This document shows positions 290 through 30,258 of a stretch of DNA of 45,443 bases, piece by piece. Source of the DNA: an uncultured bacterium (lineage in GTDB: Bacteria > Bacteroidota > Bacteroidia > Bacteroidales > CAIWKO01). Made by a program: the position numbers and the translations under genes. Location of the stretch: NCBI GenBank assembly GCA_903862465.1, contig CAIOYH010000029.1, positions 1 through 45,443 on the forward strand. Direction: 5' to 3'. Numbering within the stretch: the first letter of the stretch is position 1; every line of letters begins with the position of its first letter. Below the pieces are notes generated by a model that ran no database searches, was not told the origin of the DNA, and was given only the letters and a program-made list of their open reading frames with translations.

Positions 290-2167
290 ATGAAGAAGTT
301 TATTACGCTTATAGTCATTTTGAGTTGCGTGCTCTGTGTTTCGCACAGCTTCGCGCAAAAAAGCACCAATTATGTGGTGCTCACCACGGTCAGCTCATCC
401 GATCCTTACTATCAGGCAGCGCAAACCTTAGCCACCTATCGGGGCGCGACCATAGTGCATTTCAGCGCCGATTCCATTGCCGATTTGATACCCACCCTCA
501 CCGCTATGGCGCCGCGCTATGTTGCCGTCGTGCTCAAACCCATTCAGCTCGACATCAATTTCGTCCGCCGATTCTTGGTCATGTCCACCAATCTCGATGC
601 CGACCCCTTCAGCGATTTCTCTTACGGCTACATCACAGGCGCGACGGCTCAGGATGCGCTCAACTTCGTCAACAAAATCATCTATGCAGAGACGCATGCC
701 ATACAAAACTATCCGCTCAATGTGGGCGGCTATTCCGCGTCGTCGCTTAACTTTGTCTATCCCGGCTCGGGCGATTACAAGAAATATCTCAACCCGCCCG
801 TGTCAAACAACATCTATATGGAAACCAACGACTCGGGCATCGGGCACGATTTCTTTGTTGCCAACACGAGCTATATGCTCGACAACAAATTGCTCGACAT
901 AGGGCACAATGGTGATGCCCACATGCTGTGGCTCTTTGCCGATGGCAATGCCACCACCAATCCGCCCCCGTGGATATATGACAGCACCAAGATAGAAGAC
1001 ACCGCTTATGCGCGCGTCGGACTGACGAGCTTCGACATAGGCGCCCTAAACCTCTATCCCGCCGTAGCCTTCAACGGGGCATGCCATTCGGGCGAACCCA
1101 AACGCGTGATGATAGAAAGCGACATCGAGGCCACCTTTGGCGACACCCAAGGCTTGATAAAGTTCTACACCATGAGCGACACCTTTTCTTTTTGTTTATC
1201 CATATTGAAGACGGGCATCACGGGCTATTTTGCTCCCTGCGGAGCCAACAATGCCAACGACCAAGGCGAGGAAGTCTATAACGCTTTCCTATTCAACGAG
1301 CCGTTAGGCGATGTGCAAAAACGCACGATTGATGGGGTGGTGATGGGCTGTTTGGGCAACCGACCCAATTTGAAGATATTCCACGAAGGCGGCTCTATTT
1401 ACGATGCTGACATATTGTCGTCGGGCACGTTTAACCCTGCCAATTGGTCGGGCGCGTCAAGCATGTTGGGTGGCAAAGCCAACCGTATCTATTACGGCGA
1501 CCCGATGTATAACCCCTACAAGTATGACCATTCCGACTCCTTAAACATCACCAAGACCGTGATTGATTCCATCAAACCCACCACCTTTGATGTGCATCTG
1601 ACTTACAAGAAACCCGACGTGTCGGTAGCCTATTTCCCCGTGTGGGATAAGTTTCATTTTGGCGACACACGCATTTATGCGCCCGTCGAGTTGCCTGCCT
1701 TCTGTGGCGCGATAAACAATTTCGCCGTGGTGGATTCTTCTGCGCCTTATCATTTAGTGATACATGCCGTGGAGCAGTTTGATGGTAAAACCATTTTGCA
1801 CATCGAGGTGGATATCCCCAACGATATGTATGCTGCGATTAATTATGACATCCGCTTCCGCATCACCTACACCCCTTCGGGCATAGCGCCTATCGCCGAC
1901 CCTGCTTTTTCGATGTTTGAGGTCTTCCCCAATCCATCAACGGGCGATGCCGCCGTCAGCTTTAGTTTAAATCATGCGTCTGATGTCAGCCTAAATCTCT
2001 ATGATATCACGGGCAGATTAGTGCGCAACCTCTTCAGTGGCTTGCAACAAAGAGGCACCCACACTATAGATGTTTCGATGGATAATACGTTGATGAGCGG
2101 TATCTATTTCATTCGCTTAGAAACTGAGACCTATCAAGCAACAAAAAAGTGGGTGTTGATGCGATAA
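290..2167 (+). CDS. Secreted T9SS substrate, candidate clan CD (gingipain/caspase-like) cysteine peptidase
   Basis: The 625-aa product starts with a signal peptide (residues 1-22, ending SFAQ) and ends with a T9SS type A sorting domain (about 545-625; FPNPSTGDA near its start, GIYFIRLETE and KKWVLMR at its end), so it should cross the outer membrane. The middle contains GHNGD with His206 and FNGACHSG with Cys265. This resembles the His-Gly and Ala-Cys pair of clan CD peptidases such as gingipains, with a somewhat longer gap between the two residues. The N-terminal part (about 28-130) resembles a conserved region I recall from uncharacterised secreted proteins, but I cannot name it. The start is fixed by AAAGGAGG just upstream. 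The peptidase role is inference; the secretion route is well supported. It is encoded alone, convergent with the next gene. Confidence 0.6.
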   Translation: MKKFITLIVILSCVLCVSHSFAQKSTNYVVLTTVSSSDPYYQAAQTLATYRGATIVHFSADSIADLIPTLTAMAPRYVAVVLKPIQLDINFVRRFLVMSTNLDADPFSDFSYGYITGATAQDALNFVNKIIYAETHAIQNYPLNVGGYSASSLNFVYPGSGDYKKYLNPPVSNNIYMETNDSGIGHDFFVANTSYMLDNKLLDIGHNGDAHMLWLFADGNATTNPPPWIYDSTKIEDTAYARVGLTSFDIGALNLYPAVAFNGACHSGEPKRVMIESDIEATFGDTQGLIKFYTMSDTFSFCLSILKTGITGYFAPCGANNANDQGEEVYNAFLFNEPLGDVQKRTIDGVVMGCLGNRPNLKIFHEGGSIYDADILSSGTFNPANWSGASSMLGGKANRIYYGDPMYNPYKYDHSDSLNITKTVIDSIKPTTFDVHLTYKKPDVSVAYFPVWDKFHFGDTRIYAPVELPAFCGAINNFAVVDSSAPYHLVIHAVEQFDGKTILHIEVDIPNDMYAAINYDIRFRITYTPSGIAPIADPAFSMFEVFPNPSTGDAAVSFSLNHASDVSLNLYDITGRLVRNLFSGLQQRGTHTIDVSMDNTLMSGIYFIRLETETYQATKKWVLMR

Positions 2168-2218: not shown

Positions 2219-4960
2219 TTAGTTGATTTTTATAAACTTATGCGTTGTGGTATTTTTATCTGTGATGATGTTGATAAAATAAATCCCCGTGCGCAAAGCA
2301 TCCACAGCAATGTGCATGTCAGATACATGATTAGCGGATGTGGTCTGTAGTTTTTGTCCAAGCGCATCAAATATCTCTACGGAAGTCATCGGATTGGATG
2401 AAGTAACTCGGATGCTGCTGCCATTACTTGGGTTAGGATATATCGCAGTTTGATCCTTTGCAGCAATTTCTTTCACCGATACGGGGTTTAGAATATGCGT
2501 GCTTGTAGTATTGGTGATGATAGGCGTGTTATAATCAAAGAAGATATAAGCTTTGTTGAGGATGCTATCGCCCAAAACACAAGAGCTTATCGGTTTGATG
2601 GTATATTTTACAAAACCATGGCTCAATGCTTGGTTGGTACTGCTGTCGGGCAGGTTGATGTTATAGAAACGGAACCATACTTCTTTATCATAGAAATTAA
2701 CCGTAACGGGATGACTCGAGCTTATGAGTTTAAAGGTACTCAAATTTAGTTTTTGGCTGATACTATCGGTAACAATAACGGTGAAGGCGGTGTCGGTGCC
2801 TGTATTTTGGAAGTTCACGATATATTCCAACACATCGCCATTGGCAATAAAGGATGGTGGTATGTTTCCTTTGGGATATACTTCTTTTTCGTTGGGATCA
2901 TAAGAGGCTGAGATAACCCGATGAACGGTGTCGCTATTGTTCGCGGGAGTAAGGTCGCTCACATCAGGAGCAGAGGCGCTTGCAACCACATTGCTGCCGA
3001 TGGTGGCAAGCAGGTCAACGGCGTATTCAACCACATAACTAATCTGCTGCGTGGGATTGAGGTTGTAGGCAAGCGTAGCGGCATTGCCCGTGATATTTGT
3101 AGCCGCAGGTATGCACGAACTGATGGTGATGTTGGGATGATTTAGCAACACATTCATGCTGCCCGACTTGGTGGTGGTGCCCACATTCTTTAGGGTAACA
3201 TGTGCGATGCCCGTGAATCCGGGTCTAAATGCACCTGTAACCAAATCTATCACCAAATCATTTTGATTGGGAATAGGCTGAAAGGCAAAGTTGTTTAGGG
3301 AATCAATTTGATTGTTGAGGGCAGCAAAGGTCGAGGTGTAGGAAATAGGTGTGTAGGTATAATATAAAGGTGCATCGGTGATGGTGCTCACATACGTGCC
3401 TTTATCAACGCCCACCTGATACAGTCCGTTCACCACGGTGGTGATAGCGTTGCCAGCTTTAGTCAAGGTTAGTTTAGCAGGGCAATAGCTATCGGTGCCA
3501 TCATAGAGGGTGTTAGCATTAAAATCATAAAAAGTTTTCCCCGTAATCATATTGGCGCTATCCGTGAATTGCGCCACATAATTCGCGGAATTCGTTTGCA
3601 AAGTTGATAGCACATGTCCACCAAAAGCTGCGATGCTGCCCACATTCCCTGTTAGGAAAACACGCGAATTGTTGCACGCCATATTTTGCGTATTGAGTGT
3701 GGCAAAATCGAAGCTGTATGCGGCACCTTTTAGCGCATTGCCGTCCAGGTCTGTTTCCAACAGATAGCATATACAACTATAGGTATGCGATGGGGAAAGT
3801 GAAGTAGCGTATGTCAGATGCAAGGTGTCGAACTGATTGCTTGGGAAGTAAGGACTCGTATATCCTGTAAGGTAGATACGATTATTGTTTTTGGTGGCAC
3901 AATAGAAATGGGATTCGTAGGTGCCGTATTTCTTTGCCCACAGAAAACTGCCTGCATTGTTTATTTTAGAGATATAGGTGGAGTAGGTGGTTGATGAGAG
4001 TGTGGTGCCCATAGTGGTTGAGCCGTTGAAGCAGCCAAAAAGAAGCACATCATTGTGGTCTGTCAGCACTTCGGTGCGCCACCATGATGAACTTTCGAGC
4101 ATCTTAGCCCAAACAAAACTTCCCGCAGCGTTGGCTTTCACGATAAAATCCTGTGGAGATGAGGTAAGCGTGGAGAGTGTTCCTGCACCTCCAAGGTTTA
4201 GCGTTCCTCTAAATTCACCTGCGATAAAAATATCTTCATTATCAGCCATGGCGATGCTCAGATTCATGTGCAAAGGACTTCCGCCGAGCACGGTGGCGTG
4301 TAGCCAATTCCCGTTATCATCAATCATTGCATAAAAAAGGTTGCCCGTAGTGGGCGAAATAGTGGAACTCCCGACGGTTTGAGGGCTTACCCCTGAAAAA
4401 GGAGCACTGACTGCAATACGATTCGTGCCATTTCCTGTAATCCTTATCATGTCTGAGTTTGAATTGGATGTGCTTAGAGCTATTTTCACTGAGTTGCTCC
4501 ACAGAACATTCCCGCTCGGGTCATATTTTACAATAAAAAAGGCGACTCCGCTTGAAAGACTAATAGGATGTGGGTAGCAGTTTAAGGTTGTGGCGTTGAG
4601 GGAATCGCCGAAAATACCTACAGCATAAATATTTGATTGCTGATCCGTGTATAAACCACAAACGAAGGCATAAGTGCCACTACTGAGACTTTTTGCCCAT
4701 ACCACAGAATCGTTGTCATCGCGTTTTACAATAATGGAACTGATAGTACCATTCGATGTAAAAGTTGTGCCACCAACGATTATCGAAGTTGTGTAAGTAG
4801 TGGAATTTATTACATTGTGCATATTGTCGGTGGCAATGCGGCTCTGGAAGCCTGTGTTGGAGTTGCCTGTTTTATTGGTGTAAGCACTAATAAAGTTCTG
4901 CGTGTTGGCATAATAACCGAAACACAAAACAGTCAAAAGGGTAAAGATTATTTTTTTCAT
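2219..4960 (-). CDS. Large secreted beta-propeller protein with T9SS type A sorting domain
   Basis: The product has 913 aa. Residues 1-20 form a signal peptide. Residues of about 25-470 hold repeated blades of the SBBP type, with recurring phrases such as FIVKYDPSGNVLW and WAKMLESS. About 475-560 looks like an SdrD-B/carboxypeptidase-regulatory-like fold (GKTFYDFNANTLYDG). About 690-825 matches the Bacteroidota DUF11-like/DUF7619 domain (SYDPNEKEVYPKG, FQNTGTDTAF). The last 80 residues are a type A sorting domain (YPNPSNGSS, GIYFINIIT). It is most likely a surface-anchored or released adhesin-like protein; no enzyme motif is seen. It lies 96 bp downstream of the C1q-like gene on the same strand, and the gap holds either a terminator or an ECF-type promoter. 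Confidence 0.8.
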   Translation of the reverse strand: MKKIIFTLLTVLCFGYYANTQNFISAYTNKTGNSNTGFQSRIATDNMHNVINSTTYTTSIIVGGTTFTSNGTISSIIVKRDDNDSVVWAKSLSSGTYAFVCGLYTDQQSNIYAVGIFGDSLNATTLNCYPHPISLSSGVAFFIVKYDPSGNVLWSNSVKIALSTSNSNSDMIRITGNGTNRIAVSAPFSGVSPQTVGSSTISPTTGNLFYAMIDDNGNWLHATVLGGSPLHMNLSIAMADNEDIFIAGEFRGTLNLGGAGTLSTLTSSPQDFIVKANAAGSFVWAKMLESSSWWRTEVLTDHNDVLLFGCFNGSTTMGTTLSSTTYSTYISKINNAGSFLWAKKYGTYESHFYCATKNNNRIYLTGYTSPYFPSNQFDTLHLTYATSLSPSHTYSCICYLLETDLDGNALKGAAYSFDFATLNTQNMACNNSRVFLTGNVGSIAAFGGHVLSTLQTNSANYVAQFTDSANMITGKTFYDFNANTLYDGTDSYCPAKLTLTKAGNAITTVVNGLYQVGVDKGTYVSTITDAPLYYTYTPISYTSTFAALNNQIDSLNNFAFQPIPNQNDLVIDLVTGAFRPGFTGIAHVTLKNVGTTTKSGSMNVLLNHPNITISSCIPAATNITGNAATLAYNLNPTQQISYVVEYAVDLLATIGSNVVASASAPDVSDLTPANNSDTVHRVISASYDPNEKEVYPKGNIPPSFIANGDVLEYIVNFQNTGTDTAFTVIVTDSISQKLNLSTFKLISSSHPVTVNFYDKEVWFRFYNINLPDSSTNQALSHGFVKYTIKPISSCVLGDSILNKAYIFFDYNTPIITNTTSTHILNPVSVKEIAAKDQTAIYPNPSNGSSIRVTSSNPMTSVEIFDALGQKLQTTSANHVSDMHIAVDALRTGIYFINIITDKNTTTHKFIKIN

Positions 4961-19171: not shown

Positions 19172-21778
19172 ATGAAAAACACTTTCTTATCGGCATGGCT
19201 TCTTTTGGTTTTGAGCATCACAGCTTTTGCCACGCATCAGCGTGCTGGGGAAATTACGTATGTATGGAAATATGGCTACACCTATGAAGCTACTATTATT
19301 ACCTATACCTTCACCCCTAGCCCCGCCGACCGCCCTGAGTTGGAATTGTTTTGGGGCGATGGCACCTCTTCTATTATTACCCGCACATCAAAAGAGAATT
19401 TGCCCAATAATATTAGCCGAAACACTTATACATACGCTGGAGATGGCACCGGCGGTAGACATACATATCCCGCGGCAGCCGTTTATAAGTTGTCAATGGA
19501 AGACCCCAACCGCAACAATGGCATCATCAACATACCTAACTCGGTCAATACCGTTTTTTATATCGAAACCTATTTGGTTATCAACAATTGGTTGGGCAAC
19601 AATTCCTCGCCCATACTCACCAACCCGCCTGTTGATAATGCCTGCATCTATAAACCCTTTATGCATAACCCGTGGGCGATTGACCCCGATGGCGACAGTT
19701 TGTCCTATCGTTTAGATTTCTGCAAAGGTTCGGGAGGGGAATATATCCCCGGATTTTTTTATCCCCCTGCCAACAACTCACTCACTATTGATCCCTATAC
19801 GGGCGAAATGTTGTGGGATAGTCCGCAGTTGAATGGCGAATATAATATATGTATCATTGTTGATGAATGGCGCCATGGCATTTGGATAGGCTCGGTGAGG
19901 CGCGATATGCAAATAACGGTGGTGGCGTGCGACAACGACCAACCCGTTATAGATGCTATGAAAGATACCTGCGTGGAAGCAGGCACCTATCTCGCCTTCA
20001 ATGTACATGCTTCCGACCCTAATGGGGATATTATTACCCTTACGGGGAATGGGACGCCGCTGACAGTGCCGTCATCTCCGGCACATTTCACCCAACCGGT
20101 GCAGGGCATAGCAACCGTCAACTCGCAATTCACTTGGCAAACGGAATGTTCGCATGTAAAGAAGAACCCCTATCAAATGAATTTCAAAGCGCAAGATGAT
20201 GGCTTCCCCGTTGAACTTGTCAACTTCGCCTCCATGCGTATAACGGTGGTGGCGCCTTCTCCCAAAAACCTCACCGCAACCCCTTCGGGCAATCATATCA
20301 ACCTGAAATGGAACAAAGAGACCTGTACCAATGCCGTTGGCTATCGTATCTATCGCCGCAACGGTTACTACGGTTTCTTCCCCGACCATTGCGAAACGGG
20401 CGTGCCTGCCTACACGGGCTATGTGAAAATTGATCAAATAAATGATATCAATGACACCATTTATCTTGATGATAACAATGGCGCGGGATTGATACGCGGC
20501 ATAGATTATTGTTATATGGTGATAGCGTATTTTGCCGATGAAGCCGAGAGTTATGCTTCCTTGGAAGCTTGCGCCGTATTGCAAAAAGATGTGCCTGTGC
20601 TCACCAATGTCAGCATCACCTCCACCGACGTGGCGACCGGCACCGTCTATGTAGCATGGTCGAAGCCCACCGAATTCGACACCATCCAAATCCCGGGACC
20701 TTATAAATATTTAATCTATCGCGGACAGAATTTCTCAGGGGCACCTTACACACTTATTGATTCCGTTGCGTCCATAAACGATACCACCTACAATGATTCG
20801 CTACTCAACACTAAAGATATGCCCTATCATTACCGCATAGATTTCTATAATGACGAACCGGGCAATCATTTTTTGGTAGGAGCTACCACGCCTGCCTCTT
20901 CCGTATTTTTAACACTGACGCCCACGGATAACAAAATCATACTCTCGTGGCAATTTGATGTGCCATGGCAAAATGATTACTATGTCATTTACCGACTGAA
21001 TCCTATCACCACGCTTTATGATTCCATAGGATATACGCTTCAACATACCTACTCCGACAGTGCGCTCATCAATGGCACCACCTATTGCTATTATGTGAAA
21101 TCCGTGGGACGCTACTCGGCTAGTGGCTATGCCTATCCTTTAATCAATTTGTCCGAACGGGTTTGTGGCGTGCCTATAGATAATGTGGCGCCATGTCCTC
21201 CTTATATATATGGTGAAGCAAACTGTAAAGAAGTCTTCAATCGTTTAATTTGGACCAATCCCAATCATTCGTGTGCGGATGATGTGGTTCGATATAATTT
21301 GTATTACTCTCCGGATGCAAACAGTTCAGACTTTTCGGTGATATTTACTACTACGAACTTATCAGATACGAATTTCATCCATTCGACTATTTATACCATA
21401 GCGGGCTGTTATTATGTCACTGCCCTAGATTCCAACAATAATGAGAGCCTCCCGAGTAATGTGCTCTGTTTTGATATTGACGTGTGCTCGCCTTACACTT
21501 TGCCCAATGTTTTCACTCCGAATGGCGATGGCTCGAATGATGTGTTTAAACCTTTTCCGTATAATTTTGTAGAGAAAATCTATATACAGATATTTAATCG
21601 TTGGGGAACGGTGGTTTTCACCACAGAAAACCCGGATATTAATTGGGATGGCAAGGACAAAATGTCAAATCGCGATTGCAGCGTGGGAGTTTACTACTAT
21701 GTGTGCGATGTCTATGAACGCAAGTTGAATGGCTTGGCTAAAAGAAGTTTAACGGGCACAATCACCTTGATTCGATGA
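19172..21778 (+). CDS. Large secreted protein with fibronectin-like domains and T9SS type B (gliding-type) sorting domain
   Basis: The 868-aa protein has a signal peptide (1-20, ending AFATHQ). Residues of about 21-260 form a domain common in Bacteroidota surface proteins (HQRAGEITYVWKYGYTYEA, then DPDGDSLSYRL like a cadherin/PKD-type strand). About 365-760 holds several fibronectin type III-like repeats (NLTATPSGNHINLKWN, YRIYRRNG, YLIYRG). The C-terminus (about 776-868) is a type B sorting domain, starting LPNVFTPNGDGSNDVF and ending in GTITLIR. Type B substrates are exported by T9SS and attached through other machinery than type A. It is probably a surface adhesin or scaffold; no catalytic motif is seen. 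Confidence 0.88.
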   Translation: MKNTFLSAWLLLVLSITAFATHQRAGEITYVWKYGYTYEATIITYTFTPSPADRPELELFWGDGTSSIITRTSKENLPNNISRNTYTYAGDGTGGRHTYPAAAVYKLSMEDPNRNNGIINIPNSVNTVFYIETYLVINNWLGNNSSPILTNPPVDNACIYKPFMHNPWAIDPDGDSLSYRLDFCKGSGGEYIPGFFYPPANNSLTIDPYTGEMLWDSPQLNGEYNICIIVDEWRHGIWIGSVRRDMQITVVACDNDQPVIDAMKDTCVEAGTYLAFNVHASDPNGDIITLTGNGTPLTVPSSPAHFTQPVQGIATVNSQFTWQTECSHVKKNPYQMNFKAQDDGFPVELVNFASMRITVVAPSPKNLTATPSGNHINLKWNKETCTNAVGYRIYRRNGYYGFFPDHCETGVPAYTGYVKIDQINDINDTIYLDDNNGAGLIRGIDYCYMVIAYFADEAESYASLEACAVLQKDVPVLTNVSITSTDVATGTVYVAWSKPTEFDTIQIPGPYKYLIYRGQNFSGAPYTLIDSVASINDTTYNDSLLNTKDMPYHYRIDFYNDEPGNHFLVGATTPASSVFLTLTPTDNKIILSWQFDVPWQNDYYVIYRLNPITTLYDSIGYTLQHTYSDSALINGTTYCYYVKSVGRYSASGYAYPLINLSERVCGVPIDNVAPCPPYIYGEANCKEVFNRLIWTNPNHSCADDVVRYNLYYSPDANSSDFSVIFTTTNLSDTNFIHSTIYTIAGCYYVTALDSNNNESLPSNVLCFDIDVCSPYTLPNVFTPNGDGSNDVFKPFPYNFVEKIYIQIFNRWGTVVFTTENPDINWDGKDKMSNRDCSVGVYYYVCDVYERKLNGLAKRSLTGTITLIR

Positions 21779-25360: not shown

Positions 25361-26380
25361 CTATTTGCTGCGCACTATAGTGATAGGTCCTTTAATCAAA
25401 CCCTTGCTATTCGTCTTGTCTTTATAGCTTAAAATGTAATAATAGGTGCCGTCAGGAACGCTTTGTGCATCCCAATCGTTCATATAGGAGTTCCGTTCAT
25501 AAACAATCTTACCATTGCGGTCGGCAATCAACAAGGAATTCTCAGGATATTTATCCAAATTCTTTATCACAAACATATCATTAAATCCATCTCCATTAGG
25601 GGTGAATACGTTTGGTATTTCAAGATTATAAACAATGGTTTCCACAGGATTCACAGTGTTCTCTTGCGTATTAGGCTCGATGATAGGTGTAAATTCAGAT
25701 TCCGTTTCGGTGTTTTGGTCAACAATAGGTTCCTGATGAAGCGTTGAGTTCTGCGGGTTCAGCTTTTGGATATAATTCAACAAATTCAACACATTATTTT
25801 TCGGTTTAGTGCCTTCATTGTCATGTTTTGTGGAGGCAACATGCGCTTTGCTATCCTTCGCAGGATTTGAATTATTGTCTGCAACCGTTGTGTTTGCTTT
25901 GTTTGTTGAGTTGTCTTGTTTGGCAGGTGCCACTTGAATCTTATTAGGAGTCTTCACATCGTGATTCTTTACAACAGCCGTTTTATTTTCCACTATTGGC
26001 GCCTGAGTGTTCAGGTCATTGCTTTGTTTAGCAATCGGAGGAATTGTCTGAGATATTTTTGCAGGTGCGACAGAATTTTCCACCTTATTAAACAGTTCAT
26101 TCTTTATAACATAAACAGCTCCAAAAGCAATACCTATGGTGAGACAAGCCGCAGCAGCATAACTAATCCATACTTTAGCTTGCATCGAAGCTACTTGTGT
26201 TTGTGGATTAAAGGAGCGCTTCAGTTTCCTGAAAGAAACAAAATCCAACACATCCTTTTTAAAAAGTTTGTACTTCAGCTTTCCCCAAATGTGCGCATTT
26301 GGAGCGTGCTGATAGTTATCCAAAACATTTTTAAGATGACTATCGAAATTTGTTAGACCGTTATGTATATTCCCACTCAT
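25361..26380 (-). CDS. Anti-sigma-like single-pass membrane protein ending in a T9SS type B/gliding sorting domain
   Basis: The 339-aa protein has three parts. Residues 1-70 are a soluble, basic, helical region (NAHIWGKLKYKLF), as in cytosolic anti-sigma domains. Residues of about 71-92 form one transmembrane segment (WISYAAAACLTIGIAFGAVY). A disordered N/K/T/Q-rich linker (about 97-245) leads to a type B sorting-type domain (about 248-339; IPNVFTPNGDGFNDMF, DGTYYYILSYKD). There is no cleavable N-terminal signal peptide. Its ATG shares one base with the stop codon of the ECF sigma gene, so translation is coupled. The anti-sigma role is inferred from topology and neighbourhood. The combination of an inner-membrane anchor with a sorting-type domain is unusual and is discussed in the findings. 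Confidence 0.72.
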   Translation of the reverse strand: MSGNIHNGLTNFDSHLKNVLDNYQHAPNAHIWGKLKYKLFKKDVLDFVSFRKLKRSFNPQTQVASMQAKVWISYAAAACLTIGIAFGAVYVIKNELFNKVENSVAPAKISQTIPPIAKQSNDLNTQAPIVENKTAVVKNHDVKTPNKIQVAPAKQDNSTNKANTTVADNNSNPAKDSKAHVASTKHDNEGTKPKNNVLNLLNYIQKLNPQNSTLHQEPIVDQNTETESEFTPIIEPNTQENTVNPVETIVYNLEIPNVFTPNGDGFNDMFVIKNLDKYPENSLLIADRNGKIVYERNSYMNDWDAQSVPDGTYYYILSYKDKTNSKGLIKGPITIVRSK

Positions 26381-26919
26381 TATTTTTTGCTTGACAGCTT
26401 TTCTTGTATTATTTTTCGTGCTTTCGATAACTGTGATTTTGACGTTCCGACGTTTATATCCAGTATCTCGGCAATTTCTTTATGTTTATATCCCTCAACA
26501 ACGTATAAGTTGAGCACTATTCTATATCCATGGGGCAATTCGTTCATCACTTTCAATATTGCATCGGCTGAATGATTGTCCGAAATTTGCAAATCTTCAC
26601 CATCTTTGATATCAATCTCCATAATATCATCAATATCGGAATGGAAGTAATGCTTCAAGTTTTTTCTGTAGTTGTTTATTGCTGTATTTACCACGATTCT
26701 TCTTATCCACGAACTAATCGAACTTTCTTTCCGAAAGGTGTGAATTTCCGAAAGAATCGTCATAAATGCCATCATCAAAACATCTTCAGCTTCATCTTTG
26801 GTACGGCAATACCTCATACAAATGCCCATCATAGATGACTTATAAGTATCAAAGAGAGCCTTTTGTGCCTTCCTGTTTCCAGCAATACAACCCTCAATTA
26901 TTTTTTCTTCAAAGCTCAT
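26380..26919 (-). CDS. ECF-type RNA polymerase sigma factor
   Basis: The 179-aa protein has sigma region 2 (about 20-85; MMGICMRYCRTKDEAEDVLM, then SSISSWIRRIVVNTAINNYR) and region 4 (about 120-175; LPHGYRIVLNLYVVEGYKHKEIAEIL with the helix-turn-helix INVGTSKSQLSKARK). It should direct RNA polymerase to a small set of promoters. It sits upstream of, and one base overlapping with, the membrane protein that probably controls it. A candidate own-type promoter lies at 26933-26958, which would allow autoregulation. It is divergent from pepD. Confidence 0.93.
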   Translation of the reverse strand: MSFEEKIIEGCIAGNRKAQKALFDTYKSSMMGICMRYCRTKDEAEDVLMMAFMTILSEIHTFRKESSISSWIRRIVVNTAINNYRKNLKHYFHSDIDDIMEIDIKDGEDLQISDNHSADAILKVMNELPHGYRIVLNLYVVEGYKHKEIAEILDINVGTSKSQLSKARKIIQEKLSSKK

Positions 26920-26932
26920 CTATTTTTTTTAA

Positions 26933-26958
26933 GACAATAAAATTATACAAAAGGTTGC
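26933..26958 (-). promoter_or_regulatory. Candidate ECF promoter of the sigma gene
   Basis: On the minus strand GCAACC (26958-26953), a typical ECF -35 core with AAC, is followed after 17 bases by GTC (26935-26933), a typical ECF -10 core. The spacing is ideal for this sigma class. The -10 lies 13 bases before the ATG, so the leader would be very short. The 11-mer GCAACCTTTTG recurs upstream of the 913-aa secreted protein gene. Confidence 0.5.
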
Positions 26959-29882: not shown

Positions 29883-30046
29883 ACGGGGATTTGGCGATTT
29901 TATGTAATTTTAAAATAGGTGAGTTATCTTAGCTCAGCAGTGCACTGGGATATGCTGATTCAAATGAAAAAATATCGAAGTTTGCAAGATGCTAACTTAT
30001 TTTCGAGTGGATGAAAAGAGCGGTGAAATGTTTTTTCTTCTTAATA

Positions 30047-30258
30047 GAATGAATCGAGCATGAGCTCGAATGAATCGAGCACGAGCTCGAATGCAATCGA
30101 GCACGAGCTGGAATGTTTCGGGCATGAGCTGGAATGATTCGAGCACGAGCTAGAATGATTCGGGCATGAGCTGGAATGATTCGAGCATGAGCTGGAATGC
30201 AATCGAGCATGAGCTGGAATGATTCGAGCATGAGCTGGAATGATTCGAGCTTAAGCTG
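30047..30258. repeat. 21/22-bp tandem array, 10 units
   Basis: Units of the type GAATGATTCGAGCATGAGCT plus one base repeat about ten times. Eight units are 21 bp and two (those starting GAATGCAATCG) are 22 bp. The 22-bp units shift the reading frame, so the heptapeptide-like frame on the minus strand is not maintained, which argues against coding. Variants exchange GAGCATGAGC, GAGCACGAGC and GGGCATGAGC. Confidence 0.92.

Follow-up and report, generated by a model that had tools for sequence, protein, structure and literature searches.

The window, i.e., the whole 45,443-nucleotide stretch of uncultured Bacteroidales DNA analyzed here, encodes an ECF-type sigma factor followed by a membrane anti-sigma-like protein whose C-terminus is a T9SS type B sorting domain (CTD, CHU_C family; Table 1). 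This partner is probably a trans-envelope anti-sigma of the Dma-like kind, one that would reach the outer membrane by means of its type B CTD instead of a barrel. An earlier sequence-only reading of this DNA had described the two genes, and on recheck its coordinates, strand, frames and the single base common to the sigma stop and the partner start all proved correct.

Table 1. Features of the sigma/anti-sigma pair (window positions), followed by candidate promoter sites away from the pair (contig positions; AF2, AlphaFold2).
Feature	Position	Strand	Basis or context
ECF-type RNA polymerase sigma factor, 179 aa	26380-26919	-	TIGR02937, Sigma70_r2 and Sigma70_r4_2 matches
Conserved ECF-type promoter-like element (CAACCTTTT ... 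GTCTTA)	26930-26957	-	10 bases before sigma ATG; kept in G001 and G002
Membrane anti-sigma-like protein with T9SS type B CTD, 339 aa	25361-26380	-	Pfam, TIGRFAM, hydropathy, AF2
N-terminal cytosolic anti-sigma-like module, residues 1-68	26177-26380	-	AF2 secondary structure; HMM of long-class N-termini
Single transmembrane helix, residues 69-95	26096-26176	-	hydropathy 74-92; AF2 helix 65-97
Mostly disordered linker, residues 96-250	25631-26095	-	low pLDDT; low identity to G002 orthologue
T9SS type B C-terminal sorting domain (CHU_C), residues 251-339	25364-25630	-	PF13585, TIGR04131, AF2, VIA-align
Non-self site, own genome	C120:29956-29983		before type B CTD protein
Non-self site, own genome	C220:15953-15979		before type A CTD protein
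Non-self site, own genome	C165:3912-3939		before a sigma gene that we take to be RpoD-like
Site in G001	C37:65694-65721		before a sigma gene that we take to be RpoD-like

Among the NCBIfam profiles, the sigma open reading frame (ORF) clears the cut-off of TIGR02937 (sigma70-ECF; 93.9 bits, cut-off 42.9), and its top match, TIGR02985, falls below its own (97.5 vs. 126.4 bits); Pfam recognizes Sigma70_r2 and Sigma70_r4_2. The sigma/anti-sigma pair is found in all four genomes of the genus (its own, G001, G002 and G003, where the sigma copy is cut by a contig end), and CHU_C was detected in the partner orthologue of each of the three relatives. The one-base overlap is not kept across the genus, with 1 base again in G003 and separations of 7 bases in G001 and of 14 in G002. 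Around the pair, the window carries a convergent PqqD-like ORF after the partner and a divergent M20 peptidase gene (Pfam). When the first 100 residues of the partner were used as query at the BLAST level, 55 genomes sampled from the rest of the order gave no match; a search of this type is blind to diverged forms and too weak for claiming absence. Elsewhere in the window, positions 29992-30231 (- strand) hold a spurious-looking ORF of short repeats (PAHARII-like units).

The AlphaFold2 model of the partner, built on 27 aligned sequences, places three helices in the N-terminal module (residues 10-21, 29-40 and 47-55) with low to middling confidence (block pLDDT 47-71). The first hydrophobic stretch of the protein is that of the membrane helix (residues 74-92), so that hydropathy gives no N-terminal Sec signal peptide. 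Beyond the helix, pLDDT drops below 50 over most of the linker (residues 96-172, 174-198 and 207-248). Linker length ranges from 147 to 159 residues within the genus, which in an extended chain is long enough to cross the periplasm. The linker also includes a short predicted helix, VLNLLNYIQKL (residues 197-207, window 25760-25792), which is partly conserved in the genus and possibly a binding motif. Separately, Met 66 (window 26183-26185), located just ahead of the membrane helix, is a possible internal start that would yield a shorter, signal-peptide-like, secreted form; this residue is present in the window, L010 and L011, and absent from L012.

The CTD is the only Pfam match of the partner (PF13585, CHU_C, residues 254-326, 85.2 bits for a cut-off of 27). 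It also exceeds the cut-off of TIGR04131 (53.6 vs. 35 bits), and since the partner ranks 9th among the 41 TIGR04131 matches of its own genome, this domain is not degenerate. Its model is beta-stranded and confident (block pLDDT 82-93). Evolutionarily, dN/dS between the window and G003 is lowest in the CTD (0.034), as compared to 0.225 for the N-terminus, 0.179 for the membrane helix and 0.274 for the linker. Because synonymous sites are saturated in most of the distant comparisons, we quote identity for these; the distant G002 orthologue is identical at 66% of CTD positions, 44% of N-terminal positions and 25% of linker positions. Of the 26 columns conserved among the other type B CTDs compared from its own genome (a set of 12 rows, or 10 distinct sequences, which themselves score 22-25, partly because they define the columns), the window CTD further keeps 20. 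Given this strong constraint and the type B columns retained, the window CTD appears to be a working domain and no relic, and the type B sorting domain named in the sequence-only reading is thus real. For type B CTDs in general, a passage of PMC12618676 describes five conserved motifs (A-E) as required for secretion.

Structural comparison agrees with this assignment without deciding it. A T9SS substrate domain (8glk_D) ranked third in the Foldseek search with the CTD model and first with VIA-align (Z 9.2, 74/75 residues, 2.0 Å), which also listed the CTDs of PorZ (8.7), RemZ (7.9), RemA (7.8) and mirolase (7.5). However, DUF3244 and further domains of the Ig-like kind either score no more than 1 Z unit away from 8glk_D or are interspersed with these CTDs, and because of this tie the fold alone settles nothing on the identity of the domain. 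Three further T9SS CTDs, one of type B and two of type A, are found in the window at 21500-21775 (+), 2228-2443 (-) and 1922-2155 (+).

To place the pair among its relatives, we used a sigma-alignment scan of GTDB species genomes and retained the best 80 of 588 confirmed relatives (more exist, hence the following counts are no census). The gene after sigma was a CHU_C protein in 24 of these loci, a protein of at least 400 aa without CHU_C (hereafter the long class) in 22, another ORF of 60-350 aa in 32 (five of them truncated at contig ends, so that a CTD might be missed, and two, L063 and L080, doubtful), and missing in 2. As identical SprA coordinates show, L031 among the 24 duplicates the G003 locus, leaving 23 outside the genus. 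The sequence-only reading had suggested surveying sigma-adjacent genes for this very architecture, and its recurrence here, along with the pair in the three other genus genomes, argues against a chance association. Pfam confirms CHU_C in all 27 CTD-class partners (these 24 plus the window, L011 and L012), 17 of which also include a PKD domain, and 14 of the 22 long-class partners match OMP_b-brl_2 at an E-value of 0.01 or better.

With an HMM of long-class N-termini (22 long partners plus L013 and L028), 24 of 26 CTD-class N-termini outscored every one of 520 shuffled decoys (19.2 bits for the window module vs. 9.6 for the best decoy), and the reverse search with a CTD-class HMM placed 22 of 24 long-class N-termini above decoys. 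As judged from these reciprocal profile matches, the N-terminal anti-sigma modules of the CTD class and of the long, mostly barrel-type class are homologous. Together with a conserved promoter-like element before the sigma gene (see below), this homology lends support to the earlier designation of the pair as an ECF sigma factor with a membrane anti-sigma. On a quick sigma tree of 85 rows, which has a long L013 branch and is not to be pressed further, the CTD label requires 6 or 7 changes (with or without the unclassed rows) vs. 23.2 when shuffled, and the starred branches force at least two changes, from which the end domain seems to be inherited within clades and to have changed, probably, more than once. 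A split version of the same parts was observed at L054, L097 and L105, which encode a sigma factor, a short anti-sigma-like protein without CTD, an outer-membrane-like protein (two short ORFs in L105) and a separate CHU_C protein (detected with our own HMM).

The translocon protein SprA is encoded in the own genome of the pair (G000, 2717.6 bits), in all four genus genomes and in all 24 CTD-type genomes. It failed, however, as a discriminator of the CTD class, being also present in 21 of the 22 genomes with long-class loci (44 of 45 genomes overall, in a test that covered the CTD-type and long-class genomes; the sole miss, G084, holds the long-class locus L037). SprA, which a link through the T9SS would require, is thus in place.

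Eleven CTD anti-sigmas with PKD or PKD-like parts form one clade (95% SH-aLRT, eight of the 11 records named Bacteroidales). Except in L056, the next gene is PorP/SprF in every member (L032, L034, L038, L039, L041, L042, L047, L048, L050 and L051), and PF11751 was confirmed in each of these ten. Overall, a same-strand next gene within 350 bp was found at 56 of 76 loci, 46 of them outside this group of ten. With an HMM built from the ten PorP/SprF proteins, no score above 3.1 bits was obtained for any of the 46 (among whose listed Pfam matches are OMP_b-brl_2 in at least 11, type A CTDs in at least five and SprB repeats in at least one), vs. 37.4 and 30.7 bits for two anti-sigma fusions described below (L013 and L144). 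The CTDs of this clade have diverged, the PNGDG.ND motif being lost in nearly all members and the rest kept, and in the L041 model CTD pLDDT is about 48-84 vs. up to 94 in the PKD part. The PorP/SprF gene lies 156-293 bp downstream of the anti-sigma gene, and an ECF element looked for by eye before these PorP/SprF genes was not seen. The own genome of the window pair encodes five PorP/SprF proteins, one of them an anti-sigma fusion, and none adjoins the pair.

Passages of PMC9143113 and PMC12618676 describe type B CTD proteins as binding PorP-like barrels and needing cognate PorP/SprF shuttles, whose genes commonly lie directly downstream of the substrate gene, and according to the latter source published type B substrates can also be orphans without an adjacent shuttle. 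The sequence-only reading had placed the sorting domain in the periplasm; the membrane anchoring and the T9SS-type domain stand, but a location in the translocon, or next to a PorP/SprF-type partner of the outer membrane, is just as conceivable for this domain.

The own genome includes 16 sigma loci over the cut-off, and the window pair and 15 other regions were read. Among these 16, three operons with such an anti-sigma-like partner could be recognized, on what we take to be its hallmarks, each carrying a T9SS part. Apart from the window pair itself, one (L013, 1115-4004 on C92) mirrors the window: it encodes a sigma factor, a 573-aa anti-sigma-like protein fused to a PorP/SprF barrel (109.6 bits against TIGR03519, cut-off 90.55) and a separate 196-aa CHU_C protein, whose start looks lipoprotein-like by eye. 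The same three genes are present in G001 (L144, 354-3285), and no description of an anti-sigma-PorP/SprF fusion was found among the open-licence PMC papers listed in our searches. The other (L148, 118-3635 on C170) encodes a sigma factor, a long anti-sigma-like partner without family match (barrel-like only by eye) and an SprB-repeat/PKD protein ending in a type A CTD; this gene order is found in all four genus genomes (L148, L145, L146 and L147), with the type A CTD confirmed in three and cut off in G003 (L146). In our view, the mirror arrangement is the strongest argument that a contact between CTD and PorP/SprF belongs to the signaling path. In L013 the barrel is fused and the CTD separate, the alternative to a CTD-bearing anti-sigma held by a separate barrel.

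The promoter-like element was also sought in 81 regions preceding related sigma genes. A loose form, a pattern chosen after viewing the sequences, is found in 57 of them, including 24 of the 25 CTD-type regions, vs. 1.3 on average and 4 at most in 100 shuffling trials, and a tight form in nine of the 81 vs. none when shuffled. As this element is both kept in G001 and G002 and enriched before related sigma genes, the sigma factor likely regulates its own operon. For the wider regulon, a first pattern (CAACC N16-18 GTCTWA) was useless, with six own-genome matches vs. 18 for the backward control. A tighter one, picked after seeing the matches of the first, gave nine matches in the four genus genomes (none of them in G003) vs. 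0 backward, three at the sigma operon and six elsewhere. Besides the sites of Table 1, these include two in G002, one (C93) before a protein with a signal-like start, seen in part, and one (C207) with unclear context. Two of the three non-self sites in the own genome precede T9SS substrates, which is only suggestive, because this genome has at least 150 type A and 41 type B matches. In seven genomes of the PorP/SprF-linked clade, the tighter pattern gave seven matches vs. two backward (none in G066). Five of these precede the sigma gene, another is at a contig end next to the same divergent neighbor, and one lies elsewhere. The predicted regulon being thin, we claim autoregulation alone. As context only, a passage of PMC9723704 reports a promoter motif common to a sigma/anti-sigma pair and T9SS genes such as gldN and porU in F. 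psychrophilum.

Put together, these elements outline how a single polypeptide might link the outer membrane to a sigma factor. The N-terminal module would hold the sigma factor at the inner membrane, as would be expected from homology and gene order, one uncleaved helix would cross this membrane, and the disordered linker of about 155 residues would span the periplasm. At the far end, the type B CTD would be recognized by the outer-membrane T9SS machinery, either a PorP/SprF-type partner or the SprA translocon; a PorP/SprF barrel holding the CTD would put this end at the outer membrane, as the fused barrel does. The state of this contact (CTD bound, displaced or pulled) would then set the amount of sigma held, and freed sigma would transcribe at least its own operon. 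Candidates for altering the contact are export load, shuttle supply, envelope stress or a surface ligand, and sigma could be released by conformation or by proteolysis.

It is tempting to go further and speculate on a secretion-coupled switch, in which the translocon or a PorP/SprF shuttle engages the export tag of the anti-sigma, and RNA polymerase is thereby informed, through a single chain, of T9SS state, shuttle supply or surface anchoring. Two mirror forms would then exist, one with the CTD on the anti-sigma and PorP/SprF in trans, the other with PorP/SprF on the anti-sigma and the CTD in trans. This extension is possible, although we hold it tentatively and at less than even chances, and that secretion flow is the signal of the anti-sigma, as the sequence-only reading had proposed, is something we still infer.

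Several observations count against a CTD-mediated outer-membrane link. The window gene has no PorP/SprF neighbor, and the clade which does have one carries a diverged CTD, with its PorP/SprF gene downstream and no ECF element in front. SprA is non-discriminating, the fold match is tied with Ig-like domains, and few regulon sites were predicted. In addition, known T9SS substrates bear a Sec signal peptide according to a passage of PMC12618676, which by hydropathy the window partner does not.

A rather unlikely alternative, under which T9SS is not involved, is that the CTD serves as a convenient Ig-like periplasmic sensory or docking domain for a ligand or an envelope protein. The similar Z scores of DUF3244 and other Ig-like domains, the PKD matches in 17 of 27 CTD-type anti-sigmas and the diverged motif of the PorP/SprF-linked clade are all consistent with such a role, but it would leave unexplained the 20 of 26 type B columns kept by the window (relative to ten distinct sequences), the PorP/SprF genes or fusions recurring beside such anti-sigmas and the presence of SprA in all 24 CTD-type genomes. 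Anti-sigmas commonly undergo regulated proteolysis, and the protein might instead be cleaved in the periplasm or membrane, its outer part being exported by T9SS as a surface protein and the remaining stub acting as anti-sigma before being lost, in which case cleavage itself would be the signal and there would be no standing link. The CTD does look export-competent (from its score and conserved columns), and the PKD-CTD ends of related partners resemble secreted surface proteins. Yet no protease gene was recognized adjoining the window pair except that of the divergent M20 peptidase, and linked proteases are rare among the listed Pfam matches of the 46 next genes (M16 in at least two, one of them at L035, and S8 in at least one); this course is quite improbable. 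Finally, the partner could be a silent, non-regulatory fusion, i.e., a minor surface membrane protein beside a sigma gene by chance; with the architecture recurring in 24 of the best 80 sigma loci, a common N-terminal module, a strongly constrained CTD and a conserved promoter-like element, this is highly improbable.

The pair bears on two general questions, namely by what means Bacteroidota monitor their T9SS and which inputs many of their ECF sigma factors read. A class of anti-sigmas bearing either the export tag or the outer-membrane receptor of this tag would be a direct candidate for a sensor of T9SS. If so, an export signal could be used as a sensor, beyond delivery, and the recurrence in relatives suggests that cells may tune gene activity to events at the secretion machine. 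No description of an anti-sigma joined in this sense to a type B sorting domain, CHU_C, PorP or T9SS was found among the open-licence PMC papers listed in our searches.

Among known systems, FecIR-type cell-surface signaling combines an anti-sigma with a TonB-dependent transducer and would resemble the window pair in that a one-helix anti-sigma passes an event at the outer membrane on to an ECF sigma factor; in contrast, the partner has no FecR-type domain according to Pfam, and the pair is flanked by the genes for the PqqD-like protein and the M20 peptidase, neither of them a TonB-dependent receptor. The PorA-PorXY-SigP pathway of Porphyromonas gingivalis, as described in PMC7712824, likewise regulates the T9SS by way of a CTD protein that acts upstream of an ECF sigma factor. 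PorA, however, is a surface protein acting via a two-component system, whereas the window CTD is part of the anti-sigma itself. With the type B substrates SprB (SprB-SprF) and PG1035 (PG1035-PorP), as portrayed in passages of PMC9143113 and PMC12618676, the window partner has in common a CTD above the curated family cut-off and a translocon in the genome, and other members of its class also have the same order of a CTD gene followed by a porP/sprF gene. The window copy differs by the missing adjacent PorP/SprF gene and signal peptide (by hydropathy), and would stay in the inner membrane with its sigma-binding end in the cytosol.

The closest parallel is with the Dma anti-sigmas of Bacteroides, which passages of PMC13088901 describe as an N-terminal anti-sigma domain, a membrane helix, a disordered tether and a C-terminal barrel, encoded beside ECF21 sigma factors. 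The sequence-only reading was right on the sigma/anti-sigma pair and the type B CTD, but had missed that this general architecture is known, with a different end domain. In Bacteroides ihuae, the one Bacteroides among our control genomes, neither TIGR04131 nor SprA was matched, and the CTD form would thus have no machinery there. Compared by published description, Dma and the window partner agree in a sigma-adjacent gene, an N-terminal anti-sigma module, one membrane helix, a long disordered tether and a far end assigned to the outer membrane. The sigma factor beside the window partner, in a pair kept in the genus, is of the ECF type. The two differ in that the window partner ends in CHU_C, a small stranded domain in the model, and not in an outer-membrane beta-barrel, which is why we say that it would work like Dma and not that it is Dma.
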